13,845 bases of DNA from Pseudomonadota bacterium (GTDB lineage Bacteria; Myxococcota; Polyangia; Polyangiales; Polyangiaceae). Within the stretch, counting starts at the first letter, position 1. Each line of letters begins with the position of its first letter. Positions 1,277 to 10,905 of the stretch are shown here, piece by piece. A program made the position numbers and the translations under genes. The notes beneath the pieces were generated by a model. It was not told where the DNA came from and did no database searches. It was given only the letters and a program-made list of their open reading frames with translations. The stretch spans positions 1-13,845 of the forward strand of contig JAEZYO010000871.1 in NCBI GenBank assembly GCA_023419055.1, read 5' to 3'.

Positions 1277-2587
1277 TCACAAGAGGTGGCGCGCCTTGAC
1301 CTCGAGGTAGCGCGTGATGACCTCGCCCGTCACGTGCGCGCCGCTCGCTTCGAGCACGATCGCGCCGGCTCGCTTCATCGAGCCGACTACGGACTCGCGC
1401 CAGCGCAAGAGCTCGGCCGCTGCGCCCTTGTCGTACAGATCGCGGGGGCTCCGGTCAGGCTCCGCGAGCACGGCCTCGATGTCGCGGTCGCGGAACATCA
1501 CGACCAGCGGCAAGTGCCGGCGCCCGAGCGACTTCAGGCGGCGCACCAGGAGGTCTGCCACGCTGTCGTCGAGCACGTGCGAGAACAAGACCACGAGCGA
1601 GCGGGTTCGGACGCGGCGAACCAGGTACTCGAAGGCGGCGTCGTAGTCGGGTTCGACCAGGCGCGGGTGGAGCCCGTAGGTGGCGTGAATCAAGGCGCGC
1701 GTCGCCGCGGCGCCGCCCGTCGGGGGCATGAACACGCGCACCGAGTCGTCGAAGCCGAGCACGCCGACGCGATCGCCGCCCCGCGTCGCGACGTGCGACA
1801 ACATGAGCGCTGCATTCAAGGCGTGATCGAAGCGTGGTAGCCCGGCGTCGATGCCGGTCATCATGCGCCCGCCCTCGAGCAAGAACATGAGGTTCTGGTT
1901 GCTCTCGAGCTGGTACTCGCGGCTCGTGAGCTTGTCCCGGCGCGCAGTGGCCTTCCAGTCGATGGCTCGGAAGCCGTCGTCCGGCACGTAGTCCCGCAGG
2001 CGCGCGAACTCGGTTTGCCCGCCGCGGCGCCGCGAGGCGCGCACCAGCGAGAGCTCGCGGTTCTCGCGGGCGAGCGCGTCGAACTGACGAATCTGCTGCA
2101 GATCCGGGTAGACGCGGATGCGCTGCTCGGCCGGCAGCCTGATCTGGCGGACCCAGAGCCCGAGCAAGGACTCGTAGCGCACGTGGTGGTCGCCGAGCGT
2201 GTAGGTGCCGCGCACGCCGGGGACGATCTGGTAGGTGAGGCGAGCGCTGGCGCGCGGCGCCAGGCGGAGCGACGAAGGGAGGCCCTCGGCGACGGCACCC
2301 TCGAAGAGGTCGTCGGTGAGCTCGAGCTCGAGGGGCCGGCGGGCGAGCGAGCGAACCGAGAGCGTGACGGCGTTGCGCCGCCCGTTCGAGAAGACGTCGG
2401 CGGTGCGGCGCTCGACCGCGACGCGCGGCCGAAGCGAGAGGAGCGCGTCGAGCAGGGCGAGCGCGAGCAAGAAGAGATCGAAGCCGACCGCGTACGTGAC
2501 GAAGCGCGGCTCGAGGATCCCGAGCAGGCCGAGCCCGAGCGGGAACAGCAAGAGCAGGAGCAGGGTGCGCGACGGCAGGAGCGGCAT
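1277..2587 (-). CDS. DUF58 / vWA-like protein of the MoxR operon
   Basis: A 436-residue membrane-anchored protein. Two hydrophobic helices (about residues 6-26 and 29-50) come first, then a beta-rich region. The DUF58 signature follows: EFARLRDYVPDD (193-204) and RAIDWKATARRDKL (207-220). The C-terminal half looks like a von Willebrand A fold, which in this family is the usual partner of MoxR ATPases. The expected metal-site strand (commonly LDxGRxM) reads LLEGGRMM (236-243), with Glu238 where Asp is usual, so metal binding may be altered. The ATG at 2587 is 16 bases after the moxR-like stop, with AAGGA about 13 bases upstream. The neighbours support a role in a MoxR-vWA chaperone or maturation complex at the membrane; the client is unknown. 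Confidence 0.9.
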   Translation of the reverse strand: MPLLPSRTLLLLLLFPLGLGLLGILEPRFVTYAVGFDLFLLALALLDALLSLRPRVAVERRTADVFSNGRRNAVTLSVRSLARRPLELELTDDLFEGAVAEGLPSSLRLAPRASARLTYQIVPGVRGTYTLGDHHVRYESLLGLWVRQIRLPAEQRIRVYPDLQQIRQFDALARENRELSLVRASRRRGGQTEFARLRDYVPDDGFRAIDWKATARRDKLTSREYQLESNQNLMFLLEGGRMMTGIDAGLPRFDHALNAALMLSHVATRGGDRVGVLGFDDSVRVFMPPTGGAAATRALIHATYGLHPRLVEPDYDAAFEYLVRRVRTRSLVVLFSHVLDDSVADLLVRRLKSLGRRHLPLVVMFRDRDIEAVLAEPDRSPRDLYDKGAAAELLRWRESVVGSMKRAGAIVLEASGAHVTGEVITRYLEVKARHLL

Positions 2588-2603: not shown

Positions 2604-3559
<956 letters not shown>

Positions 3560-3563
<4 letters not shown>

Positions 3564-5455: not shown

Positions 5456-6234
5456 GACAGCCCTCGCGCGAGATCGAGCGACGCGCGCTGGAAGCGCACT
5501 TGCACGTCCCACGCTTCGCGGCGTGTGCGCACGTCGATGTAGGCGAGGTAGCGGAGGGCGGCGCAGAAGGGCGTCGCCACGAAGAAGCCGAGCAACGCGA
5601 AGTACGAGCCGCCCTCGTCGAGCAAGCTCGGCATGGCGGCGATCTCGAGGAGGTTCTCGACCACGGCGCGCCCGAGCGCGTCCACGACGAGCGCGAAAGC
5701 GACGGGCACGAGCGCGAGCGCGAGCCCCGCCTCGAGCGCGATGGTGGTGCGCGTCCCGAGGAAGCGCGAGCTCCGGCTCAGCGCGGCGCCGAGCGGCAAG
5801 CGCTCGAGCAGCACGATCTCGTTCAGGAACAAGAGCCGCGGGACGGCGATCACGAGGCCGAGCACGGTGACGGCGCCGAACGACAGCGAGGCCACCCGAA
5901 CCAAGGTCGCGAAGACGTAGCGGGGGAAGCGCGCCAGGGTATCGCGCGAGACGCTCCTCAGCGTCACCCCGTGCTCGAACATGGCGCGCCCGCCGGCGAC
6001 GGTGAACGGCGCTTGAACGAGAGAGTTTAGCGCGATGGCGGCGCACCAGACCAGCCACCAGGAGGTCTCCGCCAAGCGCAAGGCGGCGCACGCGGCGAAC
6101 GCCGGCAAGAGCCAGAGCGCCGCGAGCTTCAGGTACGCGCGCCGCTCGAGGCCCATCACGAAGCGAAAGGACAGATCGACGATCTCGGCGATCGGACGTT
6201 CACGAATGGCCACCCGCGCGTGACCGAGGTTCAT
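5452..6234 (-). CDS. Multi-pass membrane protein of the MoxR/SpoIIM operon
   Basis: A 260-residue integral membrane protein with about five to six hydrophobic segments (roughly 36-53, 58-78, 107-131, 133-147, 165-188 and 210-230). A conserved-looking cytoplasmic end follows: RYLAYIDVRTRREAWDV (228-244). A Y-x-D-x-R-x-R-x-E-x-W-D ending is seen in membrane proteins that sit beside SpoIIM, DUF4129 and DUF4350 genes in other bacteria (recollection, not searched). The ATG at 6234 overlaps the SpoIIM-like stop by 4 bases, with AAGGG just upstream, and its own stop overlaps the next ATG by 4 bases. This points to tightly coupled synthesis with its neighbours. No enzyme motif is visible; I infer a structural or partner subunit of the membrane complex. 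Confidence 0.88.
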   Translation of the reverse strand: MNLGHARVAIRERPIAEIVDLSFRFVMGLERRAYLKLAALWLLPAFAACAALRLAETSWWLVWCAAIALNSLVQAPFTVAGGRAMFEHGVTLRSVSRDTLARFPRYVFATLVRVASLSFGAVTVLGLVIAVPRLLFLNEIVLLERLPLGAALSRSSRFLGTRTTIALEAGLALALVPVAFALVVDALGRAVVENLLEIAAMPSLLDEGGSYFALLGFFVATPFCAALRYLAYIDVRTRREAWDVQVRFQRASLDLARGLS

Positions 6235-7196
6235 GCGCCCTTACCTCGCGACGTTCGGCCGCCGAGCAAGAAGAAAGCGACCAGTAAGACGAAGGTGACG
6301 GCCGAGGCGGCGTACTTGACCGGCCGCGGAATGGCCGAAGGTGACCAGAAGCCCTCGATCGCCGCCGCGATGAGCAGCATGAACGCGACCCCGACGATCA
6401 TCGACACGAGCTCCCGCGAATTTCGGCGCAGCGAGCCGAGGCGAGTCAGGCCTCCCGTATCGATGAGCGATTGTCCGAGCCGGAGCCCGGCCGCTCCGGA
6501 GAAGACGATGGCAGTGAGCTCGAAGGTGCCGTGCGTGCACACGAAGGTGAGCAGGTTGTCGAGGTGGCCGAGCCGGGCGACGTGCCCGAACACGGCGCCG
6601 TTGACGACGCCGTTGTAGACCAGGAAGAACACCGACCCGAGCCCGAAGAGCACTCCCGTGGCGAAGCAACGGAGCGCGATCCCCACGTTGTTGTAGACGT
6701 AGAAGCCCGCCATGGCAGTATCGTCGGCCTCGCTGCGGCCGTCGAAGCCCTCCCGGAACGATTCGCCGAATTGTTCGAGCTGGGCCGCTGGTAGCACCCG
6801 GGTCGCGAAATCCTCGGAGCCGAGCGCGCCCACGACGCCGACGGCGAACGGCAGCCAGAACAGGCACATCGCGGAGAGCACGAGCCAGCGGTTCTTGCGT
6901 ACCGCTCGCGGGAAATCGACGAGCACCAGATCGACGAGCGAACGCGAGCTCCGAGCGCTCGCGATGTAGAGCGTGTGGTGCGCGCGAGCGACGAGGTCGT
7001 CGAGGTAGCGGATCAGATCGGGCGTGCAGCCGAGCCGTCGCGCGCGCATCAGATCGGCGCAGGCGGCGCGGTAGAGCGAAGCCAGCCGCGAAATGCCGGT
7101 CGCGGGACGCGTCCAGGCGGCGCGCTCGGCGGCGACGGCGCGATCGAGCTCGTGCCAGAGCGGCATGCGCTCCTTCACGAAAGTCTCCCTACGCAC
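6231..7196 (-). CDS. SpoIIM-like (DUF95) membrane protein
   Basis: A 321-residue protein of the stage II sporulation protein M / DUF95 superfamily. The soluble N-terminal helical part begins FVKERMPLWHELD, like the family's usual F-V-x-E-R-x-P-x-W-x-x-L opening. Membrane helices lie near 104-125, 173-195, 215-240, 262-284 and 293-312. The family core YNNVGIALRCFATG (168-181), YNGVVNGAVFGH (194-205) and HGTFELTAI (222-230) is intact. I chose GTG at 7196, which has AGGAGG 8 bases upstream and keeps the family N-terminus. It overlaps the RDD stop by 8 bases. An in-frame GTG at 7178 is the runner-up. Outside sporulating Firmicutes this family sits with RDD, MoxR and DUF58 genes, so sporulation need not be its role. 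Confidence 0.9.
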   Translation of the reverse strand: MRRETFVKERMPLWHELDRAVAAERAAWTRPATGISRLASLYRAACADLMRARRLGCTPDLIRYLDDLVARAHHTLYIASARSSRSLVDLVLVDFPRAVRKNRWLVLSAMCLFWLPFAVGVVGALGSEDFATRVLPAAQLEQFGESFREGFDGRSEADDTAMAGFYVYNNVGIALRCFATGVLFGLGSVFFLVYNGVVNGAVFGHVARLGHLDNLLTFVCTHGTFELTAIVFSGAAGLRLGQSLIDTGGLTRLGSLRRNSRELVSMIVGVAFMLLIAAAIEGFWSPSAIPRPVKYAASAVTFVLLVAFFLLGGRTSRGKGA

Positions 7197-7956
7197 GCTC
7201 GCTGCCTCCTCGAGCGTGCTGGTACGCGACCTCGAGCAGGCGCGTCGGGCTCTTGTAGCGAACACCGTATCGCTTGGAGAGCGCCTCGGCCAAGAGCTCG
7301 GCGAGCTCTTCCTCGCGGCTCGGAGCAAGCTCGTTCCTCTTGCGCAAGAAGAGCTCGAGCGAGTCGATGGTCTCGTTCGATAGCTGGAAGTTCGCCGGAA
7401 ACTTGCGAGCTTCGTTCGCGGTGAGCGGTTTCGCCAGCCTGATCGCGGCGTCGAGCTTGGGCCTCGCCTCGTGGATCACCATGGTCCCTGCAGCGAGATC
7501 GCCGATCCTTCGGAAGTTCTGGTCCGCCACCATCGCCAAAAGGCCGAGCGCGTAGCCTACGGGGAGGAAATCGGCGGCGCGCAGCAAGTTCCTGATCAAG
7601 CTGTCGTTGAACCGCACCGGTAGGCCGTCCTGGCGCACGACGCGCAGCCCGAACACGCGCTTGCCGAGGCTCGCGCCGCGCCACCAGAGCTCGCTTGCCA
7701 CGAAGTAGCCCCACTCGATCACGAACATCGCGAACAGCAGGATCCCGACGCGGAAGCCGTCACCGCCGTCGTCGAACGCGCTCGCCAGCCCCGCCGGGAT
7801 GGCGAGCAAGAGCAGGAGCCCGGCGCGCGCGAGCAGGTCGAGCAGGTACGCGAAGCAGCGGCGGGTCGGTCCGGCGAGCTGAAACTGGAAATGGACGTGC
7901 TCCGGGGTCTCGATGGAGACCCGGGTGTCGAGGAGCTCGGCGGCGCGTTCGGTCAT
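7189..7956 (-). CDS. RDD-family membrane protein with C-terminal extension
   Basis: A 255-residue protein with an RDD domain at about residues 28-165. GPTRRCFAYLLD (29-40) carries the name-giving Arg and Asp. Hydrophobic segments lie near 44-60 and 69-88. GASLGKRVFGLRVV (95-108), SLIRNLLRAADFLP (119-132) and RRIGDLAAGTMVI (149-161) complete the signature. A charged, probably cytoplasmic tail of about 90 residues follows. It lacks the NPYAAP tag of the four RDD proteins upstream, so it is a different subtype, the one typically paired with SpoIIM genes. ATG at 7956 is preferred over TTG at 7968, since the protein then begins MTERAAELLDTRV and leaves 8 bases after the preceding stop. Its role is unknown; RDD proteins are suggested to be transporters or membrane subunits. 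Confidence 0.9.
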   Translation of the reverse strand: MTERAAELLDTRVSIETPEHVHFQFQLAGPTRRCFAYLLDLLARAGLLLLLAIPAGLASAFDDGGDGFRVGILLFAMFVIEWGYFVASELWWRGASLGKRVFGLRVVRQDGLPVRFNDSLIRNLLRAADFLPVGYALGLLAMVADQNFRRIGDLAAGTMVIHEARPKLDAAIRLAKPLTANEARKFPANFQLSNETIDSLELFLRKRNELAPSREEELAELLAEALSKRYGVRYKSPTRLLEVAYQHARGGSERA

Positions 7957-7964
7957 GTGGCGGA

Positions 7965-8498
7965 TCAAGCCTTGATCACGCGCGTGCCCGCGATCTGATC
8001 ACGAATGGTGCGGCGATCGGTGCGGAACACGGAGAGCGCGTCCACCAGGTTGTACAGGTTGCCGATGACCGGGATCGCGCCTCCCAGGCGTCCGACCAGA
8101 CCGCGCATGAAGACGCCGTAGAAGAAGCCGGGGTTCGAGCCGTCGAGGCGCACGATCTTCGTCTTGACGATCCGCTTGCCGATCGATTGGCCGCTGTTCG
8201 AAATCATCACGCACTGGATGAGCGCGATGGCGAGCACCACGAGGCTGCCCAACCCCAGCATGACCCAATCCTTAATCTCGAAGACGTCGGCGGCTTCGCC
8301 GAACTGCTCTTCCAGCGAGAGGATCGGGAGGTAAGCGAACACGCCGGGAACCGTGATCACGACGGTGTCGATCAAGTTACCGGTGAAGCGCTGAGCCGGC
8401 GTCGCGAGCACCTGGACGTCGGGCGTGGCGCGCCGTTCGTAGTCTTCTCGCGACGTCTCGGCGGGCGCGGCGTAGGGGTTGTAGTCGGGCGAGGTCAT
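7965..8498 (-). CDS. RDD-family protein with NPYAAP tag (paralog 1)
   Basis: A 177-residue membrane protein. The N-terminal tag NPYAAPAET occupies residues 7-15, followed by a polar linker of about 20 residues. The RDD domain then starts at QRFTGNLID (36-44). Hydrophobic segments lie near 45-60 and 78-99. GQSIGKRIVKTKIVRLDG (103-120) and DRRTIRDQIAGTRVI (161-175) match the other tagged paralogs almost word for word. The ATG at 8498 overlaps the stop of the 24-residue micro-ORF by 4 bases (ATGA); GGAGG lies about 16 bases upstream, far for efficient initiation, which suggests translational coupling. It is one of four tagged copies, most like the copy at 9103-9624. The specific function is unknown. 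Confidence 0.9.
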   Translation of the reverse strand: MTSPDYNPYAAPAETSREDYERRATPDVQVLATPAQRFTGNLIDTVVITVPGVFAYLPILSLEEQFGEAADVFEIKDWVMLGLGSLVVLAIALIQCVMISNSGQSIGKRIVKTKIVRLDGSNPGFFYGVFMRGLVGRLGGAIPVIGNLYNLVDALSVFRTDRRTIRDQIAGTRVIKA

Positions 8499-8569
8499 GG
8501 CTTTGTCGAGAAGTCCTCCGGACCTGTCTCACGTGGCGCGGCGTAGGGGTGGAGCTCGCCCGCTTTCAT
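8495..8569 (-). CDS. Tag-only micro-ORF (24 aa) between RDD genes
   Basis: A 24-residue open frame whose first half, GELHPYAAPRET (residues 4-15), is the N-terminal tag of the flanking RDD proteins, placed at the same offset from the start codon (residues 7-9 HPY, where the others have NPY). No RDD domain follows: the frame stops after STKP. The ATG at 8569 overlaps the preceding RDD stop (ATGA), with GAGGG about 4 bases upstream. Its own stop overlaps the next RDD start (ATGA), so it is coupled on both sides. The tag is closest to that of the paralog at 10050-10562 (GELNPYAAPAET). It is either the remnant of a fifth tagged paralog whose body was deleted, or a retained short peptide. Expression is untested. 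Confidence 0.5.
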   Translation of the reverse strand: MKAGELHPYAAPRETGPEDFSTKP

Positions 8570-9084
8570 GTCGCCCTCGGTGGTTGACGGACCACGCGCG
8601 TCCCCGCGATGACGTCCCGGAGCGTGCGCCCTTCGGGGCGAAAGACGAGCAAGGCGTCGATCACCAGGTAGGCCTGGCCCGCGAAGGGAATCAGCGCCGG
8701 GAGGTAGCCGCACCACGAGCGCAGGACGACGCCGCGGAGAAAGCCCGGCTGCGACCCGTCGAGCAGGACGATCTTGATCCTGGCGGCGCGCTTCCCGATC
8801 GACTGCCCGTCGTTCGCGACCAGGACCCATTGTAGCGTCCCGGCCGCGAGCAAGAACGAGCTCAGGATCGCCCATTTCACCGCGTCGGACTTGTCGAGGA
8901 GCAGCCCGATGCAGACCAGCGCCGGGACCGACGCGACGACGAGAACGAGCCCGTCCACGAGCAGTCCGCCGAGTCGCTGGACCGGCCTCGCGGGCTCGTC
9001 GCCGTGAGCCGCCCGCAGCGGCACGAGATCGGTGGCCGAGGTCTCGGCAGGCGGGGCGTAGGGGTTGAAGGCGGGCTCGCTCAC
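8566..9084 (-). CDS. RDD-family protein with NPYAPP tag (paralog 2)
   Basis: A 172-residue membrane protein of the tagged RDD group. The tag reads NPYAPPAET (residues 7-15). The RDD domain starts at VQRLGGLLVD (35-44). Hydrophobic segments lie near 45-63 and 71-90, then GQSIGKRAARIKIVLLDG (93-110), a third hydrophobic stretch around 127-147, and GRTLRDVIAGTRVV (152-165). The start is GTG at 9084, which places the tag at the shared offset; the Shine-Dalgarno match upstream is weak. It lies 18 bases after paralog 3 and overlaps the micro-ORF start by 4 bases. It and paralog 4 share LRSWxGxLPAL after the central motif, whereas paralogs 1 and 3 share MRG/LRG and PVIGNLY or PIVGNLY. This suggests two subtypes in the array. 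Confidence 0.9.
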   Translation of the reverse strand: MSEPAFNPYAPPAETSATDLVPLRAAHGDEPARPVQRLGGLLVDGLVLVVASVPALVCIGLLLDKSDAVKWAILSSFLLAAGTLQWVLVANDGQSIGKRAARIKIVLLDGSQPGFLRGVVLRSWCGYLPALIPFAGQAYLVIDALLVFRPEGRTLRDVIAGTRVVRQPPRAT

Positions 9085-9102: not shown

Positions 9103-9624
9103 TCAAACCTGGATCACGCGCGTACCGGCGATCATGTCGCGCAGGGTCCGTCGGTCGTCCTTGAAGATGCAGAGCGTGTCGGCGAGGCCGTAGAGGTTAC
9201 CGACGATCGGCACGGCGCCCGGGAGGTACCCGACGATGCCGCGCAGGAGGACGCCGTGCACGAACCCGGGCAGCGAGCCGTCGAGGCGGACGATCCTGGT
9301 CTTGACCAGTCGCTTGCCGATCGATTGGCCTCGCGTCGAAATCATGAACCACTGCACGCCCGCGATCGCGAGGATGACGAGGCCCATCACACCCAAGAGG
9401 AGCGTGCTCTCGGTGGGCTCTCCGTCGGTGTTCTTTTCGAGAGCCGACAGCGGAATCATCGCGAGCACGATGGGGACCACCAGCACGAGGCTGTCGAGCA
9501 CGTTGCCCGCGAAGCGCTGGCCGAGGGTGGCGAGCACGTAGTGATCCGGGCTCGCCTGCTGGGTGAAATCGTAGGCGGGCGTCTCCGTGGGAGCGGCGTA
9601 CGGGTTGTAGTTGGGATCGTTCAC
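9103..9624 (-). CDS. RDD-family protein with NPYAAP tag (paralog 3)
   Basis: A 173-residue RDD membrane protein with tag NPYAAPTET at residues 7-15. The RDD domain starts at GQRFAGNVLD (35-44), with hydrophobic segments near 45-60 and 75-95. GQSIGKRLVKTRIVRLDG (99-116), VPIVGNLYGLAD and DRRTLRDMIAGTRVI (157-171) follow. Two GTG starts compete. The one at 9624 has a perfect AGGAGG 6 bases upstream and gives the same tag offset as the paralogs. The one at 9639 would place the AGGAGG inside the coding region, so I reject it. The gene follows a 425-base stretch without a convincing gene, so it may have its own promoter. It is close to paralog 1 and reads on into paralog 2 after 18 bases. Confidence 0.9.
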   Translation of the reverse strand: MNDPNYNPYAAPTETPAYDFTQQASPDHYVLATLGQRFAGNVLDSLVLVVPIVLAMIPLSALEKNTDGEPTESTLLLGVMGLVILAIAGVQWFMISTRGQSIGKRLVKTRIVRLDGSLPGFVHGVLLRGIVGYLPGAVPIVGNLYGLADTLCIFKDDRRTLRDMIAGTRVIQV

Positions 9625-10049
9625 GTCATTCCTCCTCACGCCGCGCGCGGGCGCGGCTCCTCCGAGTGAAGCGGCGCGACGCCGAGCTCGGCGCTCGAGC
9701 GCTCCGCCTTTTCATGCCACCAGCCATGCTTCCCAGAGTCATCGTCGGCCCCGAACCATCCAAACGAATCTCTCAGCGGAGTCACGTGGAGGTCAAGTGA
9801 GGGCGAGCCTGGCTCTCGATCAGGCGCCCCCCGGCGTTCCGTGCCGAGATCGAAGGGCTTCACCGCTTGCTGAACCCTTGAGCAGGAAGCGGGCGGAGGG
9901 CCGCCCTCGCGCCCCCCCGAGCCGACGAGAAACACGGCGCACGAGGCCCGGCGAGACGAACAAACTTGATTTAGGCAATGAAGTGCCGACAGGGCGCCCC
10001 GTGCCGCTTGACGAGGCCGGCCCCGGGAGAGCTCGACGAGCGCCGCGGC
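9625..10049. other. 425-base spacer between RDD paralogs 4 and 3
   Basis: No gene here is convincing. The minus strand has an open frame (9636-9935, 99 codons) ending in an overlap with a rejected RDD start. Only its last third has the G/C third positions typical of the neighbours, and I recognise no family. The stretch holds one copy of a 17-base motif (9869-9885) shared with the region upstream of paralog 4, and a short AT-richer island (about 9955-9985) unlike the surrounding sequence that could hold a promoter for the downstream RDD genes. I see no clear terminator with a T-run after paralog 4. Confidence 0.5.
9869..9885 (-). repeat. 17-base motif, copy upstream of RDD paralog 3
   Basis: On the minus strand it reads CTGCTCAAGGGTTCAGC, 16 of 17 bases identical to 10663-10679 and in the same orientation toward an RDD gene. 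Its distance to the paralog 3 start (245 bases) differs from the other copy, so a fixed-position promoter role is not supported. Confidence 0.4.
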
Positions 10050-10562
10050 TCACGCTCGGATCACGCGCGTCCCGGCGATGCGATCGCGCAGCGTGCGTCG
10101 GTCTTTGCGAAAGACGTAGAACGAGTCGACGACCACGTACGCGTAGCCCACGATGGGCACGAGCGCGGGCAGGCACCCCACCCAGGAACGCAAGACGACG
10201 CCGTGGTAGAAGCCGGCGCGCGAGCCGTCGACCCGGACGATCTTCGTCCCGAAGGCGCGCTTGCCGATGGTCTGCCCAGAGCTCGCGACCAAGAACCACT
10301 GCGCGAGCGCCGGCAGGAACGCCGCTAGCGCGACGAAGATGATGAAGCTCGTCGGGTCCCTGTCGGAGTAAGAGGCTAACGGCCCGAGCGCGACCACGAG
10401 CGCGAAGGACGGGAGGACGAAGACCAGCACGTCCACGAAGTGGGCGGCGAAACGCTGGTTGATGCTGGCGAGCCGCTCGGCGCGGGAGAGGGCTTGCTCT
10501 CCGACGTCGTGGGCGGGCGTCTCCGCCGGTGCCGCGTAAGGATTGAGCTCACCCCGAGCCAT
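10050..10562 (-). CDS. RDD-family protein with NPYAAP tag (paralog 4, first of the array)
   Basis: A 170-residue membrane protein and the first gene of the minus-strand block. The tag NPYAAPAET is at residues 7-15. The RDD domain begins INQRFAAHFVD (34-44). Hydrophobic segments lie near 45-62 and 72-93, with GQTIGKRAFGTKIVRVDG (96-113), a further segment around 128-148, and DRRTLRDRIAGTRVI (154-168). The ATG at 10562 has GGAGGA directly against it, an unusually short spacing, and a 7-bp inverted repeat (10567-10588) whose downstream arm includes part of this ribosome site. The spacer to paralog 3 is 425 bases, so it may be transcribed separately. It diverges from rplV across the intergenic region. 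Confidence 0.88.
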   Translation of the reverse strand: MARGELNPYAAPAETPAHDVGEQALSRAERLASINQRFAAHFVDVLVFVLPSFALVVALGPLASYSDRDPTSFIIFVALAAFLPALAQWFLVASSGQTIGKRAFGTKIVRVDGSRAGFYHGVVLRSWVGCLPALVPIVGYAYVVVDSFYVFRKDRRTLRDRIAGTRVIRA

Positions 10563-10588
10563 TCCTCCGACTGTCTCAAGCCAGTCGG
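10563..10588 (-). promoter_or_regulatory. Hairpin overlapping the ribosome site of RDD paralog 4
   Basis: On the minus-strand RNA, CCGACTG pairs with CAGTCGG (7 bp, loop of 8). The downstream arm contains the first two bases of GGAGGA, which abuts the ATG at 10562. If it forms, it would compete with ribosome binding. There is no T-run, so it is not a standard terminator. Function is inferred only. Confidence 0.35.
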
Positions 10589-10662
10589 GGCCTGGTCAAC
10601 GAGCCCGCCGGCCGCCACCGTGAAAGGAGTGGGGCGCCCGGGCGAGCCCTGGAGGAGCCCCG

Positions 10663-10679
10663 GCTGAACCCTTGAACAG
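10663..10679 (-). repeat. 17-base motif, copy upstream of RDD paralog 4
   Basis: On the minus strand it reads CTGTTCAAGGGTTCAGC. The copy at 9869-9885 differs at one base. Inside it GTTCA occurs twice, 8 bases apart. It lies 101 bases upstream of the paralog 4 start. Confidence 0.4.
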
Positions 10680-10684
10680 CCCTT

Positions 10685-10700
10685 TTGGCACGACTTTCGC
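10685..10700 (+). promoter_or_regulatory. Sigma-54-like site upstream of rplV
   Basis: TTGGCACG-N4-TCGC has the GG-N10-GC spacing that sigma-54 requires and differs from the TTGGCACG-N4-TTGC consensus at one base. It points toward rplV, 206 bases before the start codon. A housekeeping ribosomal operon would not be expected to use sigma-54, so this may be chance. Confidence 0.35.
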
Positions 10701-10729
10701 CGATCGATGCAAGATCCGACGACAGGCGC

Positions 10730-10758
10730 TTGCCAGGCCACCGGTCGTTTGCTAGGTA
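10730..10758 (+). promoter_or_regulatory. Sigma-70-like promoter for the rplV operon
   Basis: TTGCCA (10730-10735) is followed, after 17 bases, by TAGGTA (10753-10758), preceded by TGC, which resembles an extended -10. The following bases GGCGACCCC make a G/C-rich discriminator, usual at growth-rate-controlled promoters. A start near 10765 would leave a leader of about 140 bases. Confidence 0.45.
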
Positions 10759-10839
10759 GGCGACCCCTTTGCAGGCTCGGGCCATCGCTCACGCGGGCTT
10801 CGGGTTCTGCCAGCCGCCAGGGTTTCGGCCCACGAGAGG

Positions 10840-10880
10840 CGGATGTCGGAGCAACGACATTCGATGCTCCAGGGGCCGAC
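10840..10880 (+). promoter_or_regulatory. Structured leader before rplV with two competing hairpins
   Basis: Hairpin A pairs 10840-10848 with 10855-10863 (9 bp including one G-U, loop GAGCAA). Hairpin B pairs GGAGCA (10848-10853) with TGCTCC (10865-10870) and can be extended by GTC (10845-10847) with GAC (10878-10880). They share bases, so they exclude each other. The ribosome site AAGGA (10891) lies just downstream. A role in autoregulation is inferred, not shown. Confidence 0.35.
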
Positions 10881-10905
10881 AAGTCTCACCAAGGAAACTG
10901 TCGTC

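Follow-up and report, generated by a model that had tools for sequence, protein, structure and literature searches.

The closest described parallels to the element reported here are termination-reinitiation pairs, in which neighboring genes are coupled through an ATGA overlap, as treated in PMC6728339 and PMC10666635. In PMC10666635, reporters in E. coli and Haloferax indicate that a spacing of about 20 to 38 nt nearly abolishes reinitiation and that no more of the upstream gene than its last 15 nt is needed for it; earlier work cited there describes reinitiation across 73 nt. A second parallel is provided by tagged RDD proteins (PF06271) encoded in SpoIIM/MoxR/DUF58 operons. Here, we describe a micro-ORF of 24 codons that shares features with both, found in a 13,845-nt stretch of DNA from a member of the Polyangiaceae (the whole of which we call the window). 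It resembles the coupled pairs in having 4-nt overlaps, here two in series, but falls well short of normal gene length, and its coupling is predicted from sequence. It lies between two tagged RDD genes and carries a variant of their tag at the same offset from the start; it differs from them in having no RDD domain, in its 24 codons and in an H in place of the N of the tag. We hold with moderate confidence that this micro-ORF represents the remaining 5′ stub of a fifth paralog of the tagged RDD type, probably still acting as a translational bridge.

The operon is read from the minus strand in the order RDD1, RDD2, RDD3, micro-ORF, RDD4, RDDm, SpoIIM, further genes, DUF4350, MoxR and DUF58. Four of its genes encode tagged RDD proteins: RDD1 (10050..10562; 170 amino acids; MARGELNPYAAP), RDD2 (9103..9624; 173 amino acids; GTG start; NPYAAP), RDD3 (8566..9084; 172 amino acids; GTG start; NPYAPP) and RDD4 (7965..8498; 177 amino acids; NPYAAP). 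Each matches PF06271 and carries NPYA[AP]P from residue 7. RDDm (7189..7956) encodes an untagged RDD protein of 255 amino acids if read from the ATG at 7956 (a TTG at 7968 is possible) and is the first gene of a conserved RDDm-SpoIIM-MoxR-DUF58 set, the other members of which are a SpoIIM-family protein with a start codon that is not settled (6231..7187), a MoxR-type AAA ATPase (AAA_3, bpMoxR; 2604..3563) and a DUF58 protein (1277..2587), all on the minus strand. RDD1 and RDD2 are separated by 425 nt (9625-10049) in which tblastn gave no notable RDD similarity, and it is possible that RDD2 onward has its own promoter there. Just before RDD2, ATGACGTGA at 9621-9629 (minus strand) is a start codon followed at once by a stop, and it overlaps the GTG start of RDD2. 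Beyond RDD1 (10563-10905), a plus-strand ribosomal run opens with rplV, and rpsS was not found in the window. Among relatives (L076-L084), rpsS and rplV lie anywhere between side by side (L084) and about 11 kb apart (L076), which suggests that insertions are frequent at this point of the S10 cluster.

The micro-ORF occupies 8495..8569 on the minus strand, between RDD3 and RDD4, and encodes MKAGELHPYAAPRETGPEDFSTKP before a TGA stop. Its start shares an ATGA with the RDD3 stop (8566..8569), and its stop shares another with the RDD4 start (8495..8498), each an overlap of 4 nt on the minus strand. A ribosome-site-like GAGGG (8574..8578, minus strand) stands 4 nt before its ATG, with a predicted pairing of −6.4 kcal/mol, which is moderate (RDD2, −12.0). 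The initial annotation had described such a frame, linked to both neighbors by ATGA overlaps, preceded by a ribosome site and carrying the tag at the offset seen in four RDD genes. Re-reading the sequence confirmed the frame, its coordinates, its peptide, the offset and these signals. It had also named the tag NPYAAP; a tag does begin at residue 7, exactly as in RDD1, RDD2, RDD3 and RDD4, but the micro-ORF reads HPYAAP and RDD3 reads NPYAPP. The micro-ORF thus has the position and five of the six residues of NPYA[AP]P, with N changed to H.

Of the stop/start overlaps of 4 or 1 nt expected for a translationally coupled gene, the micro-ORF has the 4-nt kind, ATGA, on both sides. Overlaps of 4 nt also occur elsewhere in the operon: an ATGA between SpoIIM and the next gene, another at the following junction, and a GTGA before MoxR. 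Since they are common here, the micro-ORF is placed like a gene, and the overlaps alone are unremarkable. Inside the micro-ORF, a GGAGG (8515..8519, minus strand) lies 16 nt before the RDD4 ATG, beyond the usual Shine-Dalgarno distance. The peptide matched no Pfam family, PF06271 included, whereas RDD1 to RDD4 and RDDm all match that domain. Its GC3 was 0.71 overall and 0.58 in codons 13 to 24, compared with 0.88 to 0.90 for the RDD1 to RDD4 genes. However, this is a weak sign of drift, because the first 24 codons of RDD1 likewise have a GC3 of 0.71.

The likeness of the micro-ORF to the RDD N-termini is not a product of chance. We scored all 20,717 stop-free 20-mers on both strands of the window against the four N-termini; the four RDD genes scored 102 to 113, the micro-ORF came fifth with 59, and the next 20-mer reached 28. 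When its 75 nt were shuffled 20,000 times with dinucleotides preserved, the top score was 41, so that 59 was never reached. A chance frame was rejected on these grounds. An origin as a frameshift within RDD4 was likewise rejected, as RDD4 is intact and carries a tag of its own where the other RDD genes have theirs.

Nine RDD queries were compared with the window by tblastn, and the homology to RDD N-termini covered nearly the entire micro-ORF. The best match came from P0010 (57% over codons 1 to 21, E = 1.2e-4), the sole one with E < 0.001 outside the RDD genes. It was followed by P0048 (58% over 19 residues, codons 5 to 23, E = 0.001), the RDD1-type protein P0049 (73% over 15, E = 0.005), RDD1 itself (73% over 15, E = 0.006) and RDD4 (43% over 23, E = 0.006). 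Ungapped identity over 20 residues was highest for the RDD1-type proteins P0046 and P0047 (13/20), followed by P0010 and RDD1 (12/20) and RDD4 (10/20). The search for other RDD relics in the window gave as its next match RDD1 at 6099-5953 (E = 0.002), inside another gene, which we rejected. At the DNA level, the micro-ORF agreed with RDD1 to RDD4 at 17 to 21 of the 27 tag positions and at 9 to 12 of the 30 positions from 46 to 75; the full genes agreed among themselves at 19 to 24 and 12 to 19 positions, respectively. The tag DNA is thus the best-kept part of the micro-ORF, a pattern that a working tag or a long history in a full gene would each explain. A remnant should match the 5′ portion of a gene family and lack the remainder, and the micro-ORF does both.

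Such a remnant would imply a former full-length gene at this position; among the sequences compared, none was seen there, which counts against this reading. An internal deletion would have taken the stretch from about codon 24 to the RDD4 start. What stayed would be the start and the ribosome site before it, the tag, and a stop in frame that overlaps the RDD4 start; the product would no longer be a membrane protein. The changed tag residue and the lower GC3 (0.71 against 0.88 to 0.90) are drift signs that we count for this reading. Protein searches recovered relatives of the window genes on metagenome contigs: P0003 (80%) and P0004 (74%) for RDD4, a single one, P0036 (51%), for RDD3, and others for RDD2 and RDD1. 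More distant RDD relatives include Nannocystaceae and Myxococcales. A tree of 24 rows resolved clades for RDD1, RDD2, RDD3 and RDD4 together with separate lineages for P0010 and for P0048/P0013; the fork holding P0010 is open, and its exact place is unsure. Neither lineage has a full-length member in the window, and P0010 and P0048 are full RDD proteins. P0010 has the same listed contig size (6114) as P0009 of the RDD2 clade and P0049 of the RDD1 clade, and P0048 the same (1726) as P0012 of the RDD2 clade; in the tree, P0009 is sister to P0008, from the 2668 contig. At least six lineages of the tagged family can thus be counted, two of them lacking a full-length member in the window. These two, P0010 and P0048, appear to stand beside array members in relatives, to which they are tied only by equal listed contig size. 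Some lineages with no full-length counterpart in the window match the micro-ORF about as well as anything does. Its 24 residues, with an RDD1-like start and a P0048-like end, are too few to name the parent lineage. In this reading, the lost paralog was one of a tandem array in which copies come and go.

Comparable losses are found in other RDD genes. About 40 middle residues, GQSIGKR among them, have been lost in frame from P0036, an RDD3 orthologue with NPDAAP as its tag, and the RDD domain is no longer detected in it by Pfam. In genome G454, a 63-codon tagged frame (L159, 2275-2084) directly upstream of the RDDm gene runs from the tag through LAERGS into DDRRCLHDRIAGTKVV, its membrane core having been lost in frame. 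Like the micro-ORF, it keeps tag and frame without the membrane core at a matching operon position, there adjoining RDDm; it differs in its length and in retaining the C-terminal piece. These in-frame losses suggest that keeping the frame is favored, but they are no proof, because open frames are easier to find. The initial annotation had offered two origins, and the loss of a fifth paralog's membrane domain by deletion is the better supported of the two, given these two in-frame core losses and the extra paralog lineages in relatives.

The region upstream of SpoIIM was compared in 23 of the 55 genomes with a SpoIIM match, comprising 20 regions and three genomes (G403, G404 and G430) picked for their RDD matches. 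RDDm adjoined SpoIIM in 23/23. Directly before RDDm on the same strand, there was a full tagged RDD gene in three (G403, G404 and G430, with one each at the matching place), a remnant in one (G454) and neither in 19. Three of those 19 (L160, L163 and L165) have a tagged gene of another kind in the opposite direction, and in three others (L164, L166 and L173) the DNA covered ends within about 2 kb. Genome G350 is close to the window by rpsC (95%). RDD4 had no close match among 108 genomes of the family of G350 (best full-length match, about 41%), and RDD2 had none among 183 genomes of its order (best, about 47%). A search of genome contigs for close relatives gave 16 loci, the best by E-value at 35%, while viral contigs gave none and plasmids gave five records, all below 60%.

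We surveyed the tag itself in the first 45 residues of 97 relatives, leaving out the window copies and the micro-ORF. It was present in 51, with N as the first residue in 46, S in four, D in one and H in none. A scan of 18 related genomes for [NH]PYA[AP]P gave 51 sites, comprising 33 long frames (start no more than 15 codons away and 80 or more residues following the tag), seven shorter frames and 11 without a near start. Among the long frames, 32 were N-type, and the one H-type (L149) does not look like a tagged membrane protein; another (L125) lies opposite a longer ORF. None of the seven short frames has the architecture of the micro-ORF. Four (L126, L129, L148 and L175) overlap longer ORFs on one strand or the other, and the G454 remnant (L159) likewise has longer ORFs opposite it. 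In L143, 48 residues follow the tag, whereas L141 is a frame of the H type with 35 codons and a GTG start. Besides RDD proteins, several dissimilar proteins of these genomes, many of them containing hydrophobic stretches, carry NPYA[AP]P at the N-terminus (L130-L190), and some RDD proteins have between two and four consecutive NPY-type repeats there (L023, P0033). A GYF_2 domain (PF14237) was found in 18 RDD proteins (P0026, P0044 and 16 of the 71 matches of one protein search). None of these 18 has an NPY-type tag in its first 45 residues, compared with 51 of the 79 other relatives. To judge from the sequences, the tag and GYF_2 may substitute for one another or be binding partners. In the literature library searched, six NPYAxP- and NPYQxP-type spellings of the tag found no paper, and nothing on the tag appeared among the papers listed on GYF/RDD and on MoxR/SpoIIM/RDD/DUF58.

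The strongest rival to a deleted fifth gene is a partial tandem duplication, in which a 71-nt unit from the start of a neighboring RDD gene was copied once and a fifth full gene never existed. From the micro-ORF start to the RDD4 start is 71 nt, and ATGA opens each of the two copies; a unit of 3n+2 nt that starts at ATGA automatically gives a short frame with ATGA on both sides, barring an earlier in-frame stop, so that no lucky deletion end points are required. The tag DNA of the micro-ORF and RDD4 shares a 16-nt exact stretch and agrees at 21/27 positions, and none of the other three tagged genes of the window comes as near to the first 60 nt as RDD4 does (39/60, against 34 to 36), which slightly favors duplication. 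However, the similarity is uneven along the unit, falling from 39/60 in the first 60 nt to 9/30 at positions 46 to 75. This is the pattern of old paralogs and argues against duplication. The peptide is also nearer to the RDD1 type and P0010 than to RDD4, and we regard duplication as unlikely. We give little credence to a relic with no present role, its overlaps inherited from the old gene: the changed tag residue and codon drift would fit it, but the start, the ribosome site and the frame have been preserved, as have both overlaps.

Two further alternatives assign the micro-ORF a function of its own. A working tag-only peptide would compete for, or prime, a binder of the NPYAxP tags of membrane proteins. 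The tag is the best-kept part of the micro-ORF, lies at a constant offset and is preceded by a ribosome site, and its spread across the N-termini of unlike proteins suggests that a binder may exist. On the other hand, a near-invariant Asn is His in the micro-ORF, which speaks against a working tag peptide, GC3 is low in the second half of the frame, and no comparable tag-only gene occurs among the 51 sites of the 18 genomes. We found no direct evidence for the competitor that the initial annotation had proposed, and we consider such a peptide very unlikely. It is equally improbable that a truncated copy was re-used, its small soluble product tuning the array by filling the receptor to which NPYAxP-tagged membrane proteins bind. 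Alternatively, whatever its paralog history, the micro-ORF might have been selected as a regulatory leader through which translation is sensed for RDD4. Its position directly before RDD4 with ATGA coupling would suit a leader, yet the homology of the tag would be left without explanation, and we assign this the smallest likelihood of all.

The remnant of a fifth paralog may still have a use as a ribosome bridge to RDD4. Ribosomes finishing RDD3 would restart at the micro-ORF ATG, read its 24 codons and then terminate right where RDD4 begins. Without translation of the micro-ORF, RDD3 would end 67 nt short of the RDD4 start, an untranslated gap that should weaken or break coupling; hence the bridge. 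The GGAGG of RDD4, 16 nt off, also speaks for it, and with a 4-nt overlap at each end the stub seems well built for passing ribosomes. However, the 73-nt case cited in PMC10666635 means that a 67-nt gap is not necessarily fatal, and this weakens the bridge reading. The ribosome sites of RDD3 and RDDm are poor too, so RDD4 may not need a bridge.

The micro-ORF is most likely an informative yet fairly ordinary outcome of gene duplication and loss, and it draws attention to the NPYAxP N-terminal tag. If the remnant does serve as a bridge, a coupled operon can lose a gene product yet keep its ribosome traffic, and this locus would be a natural test of the shortest possible coupling frame.
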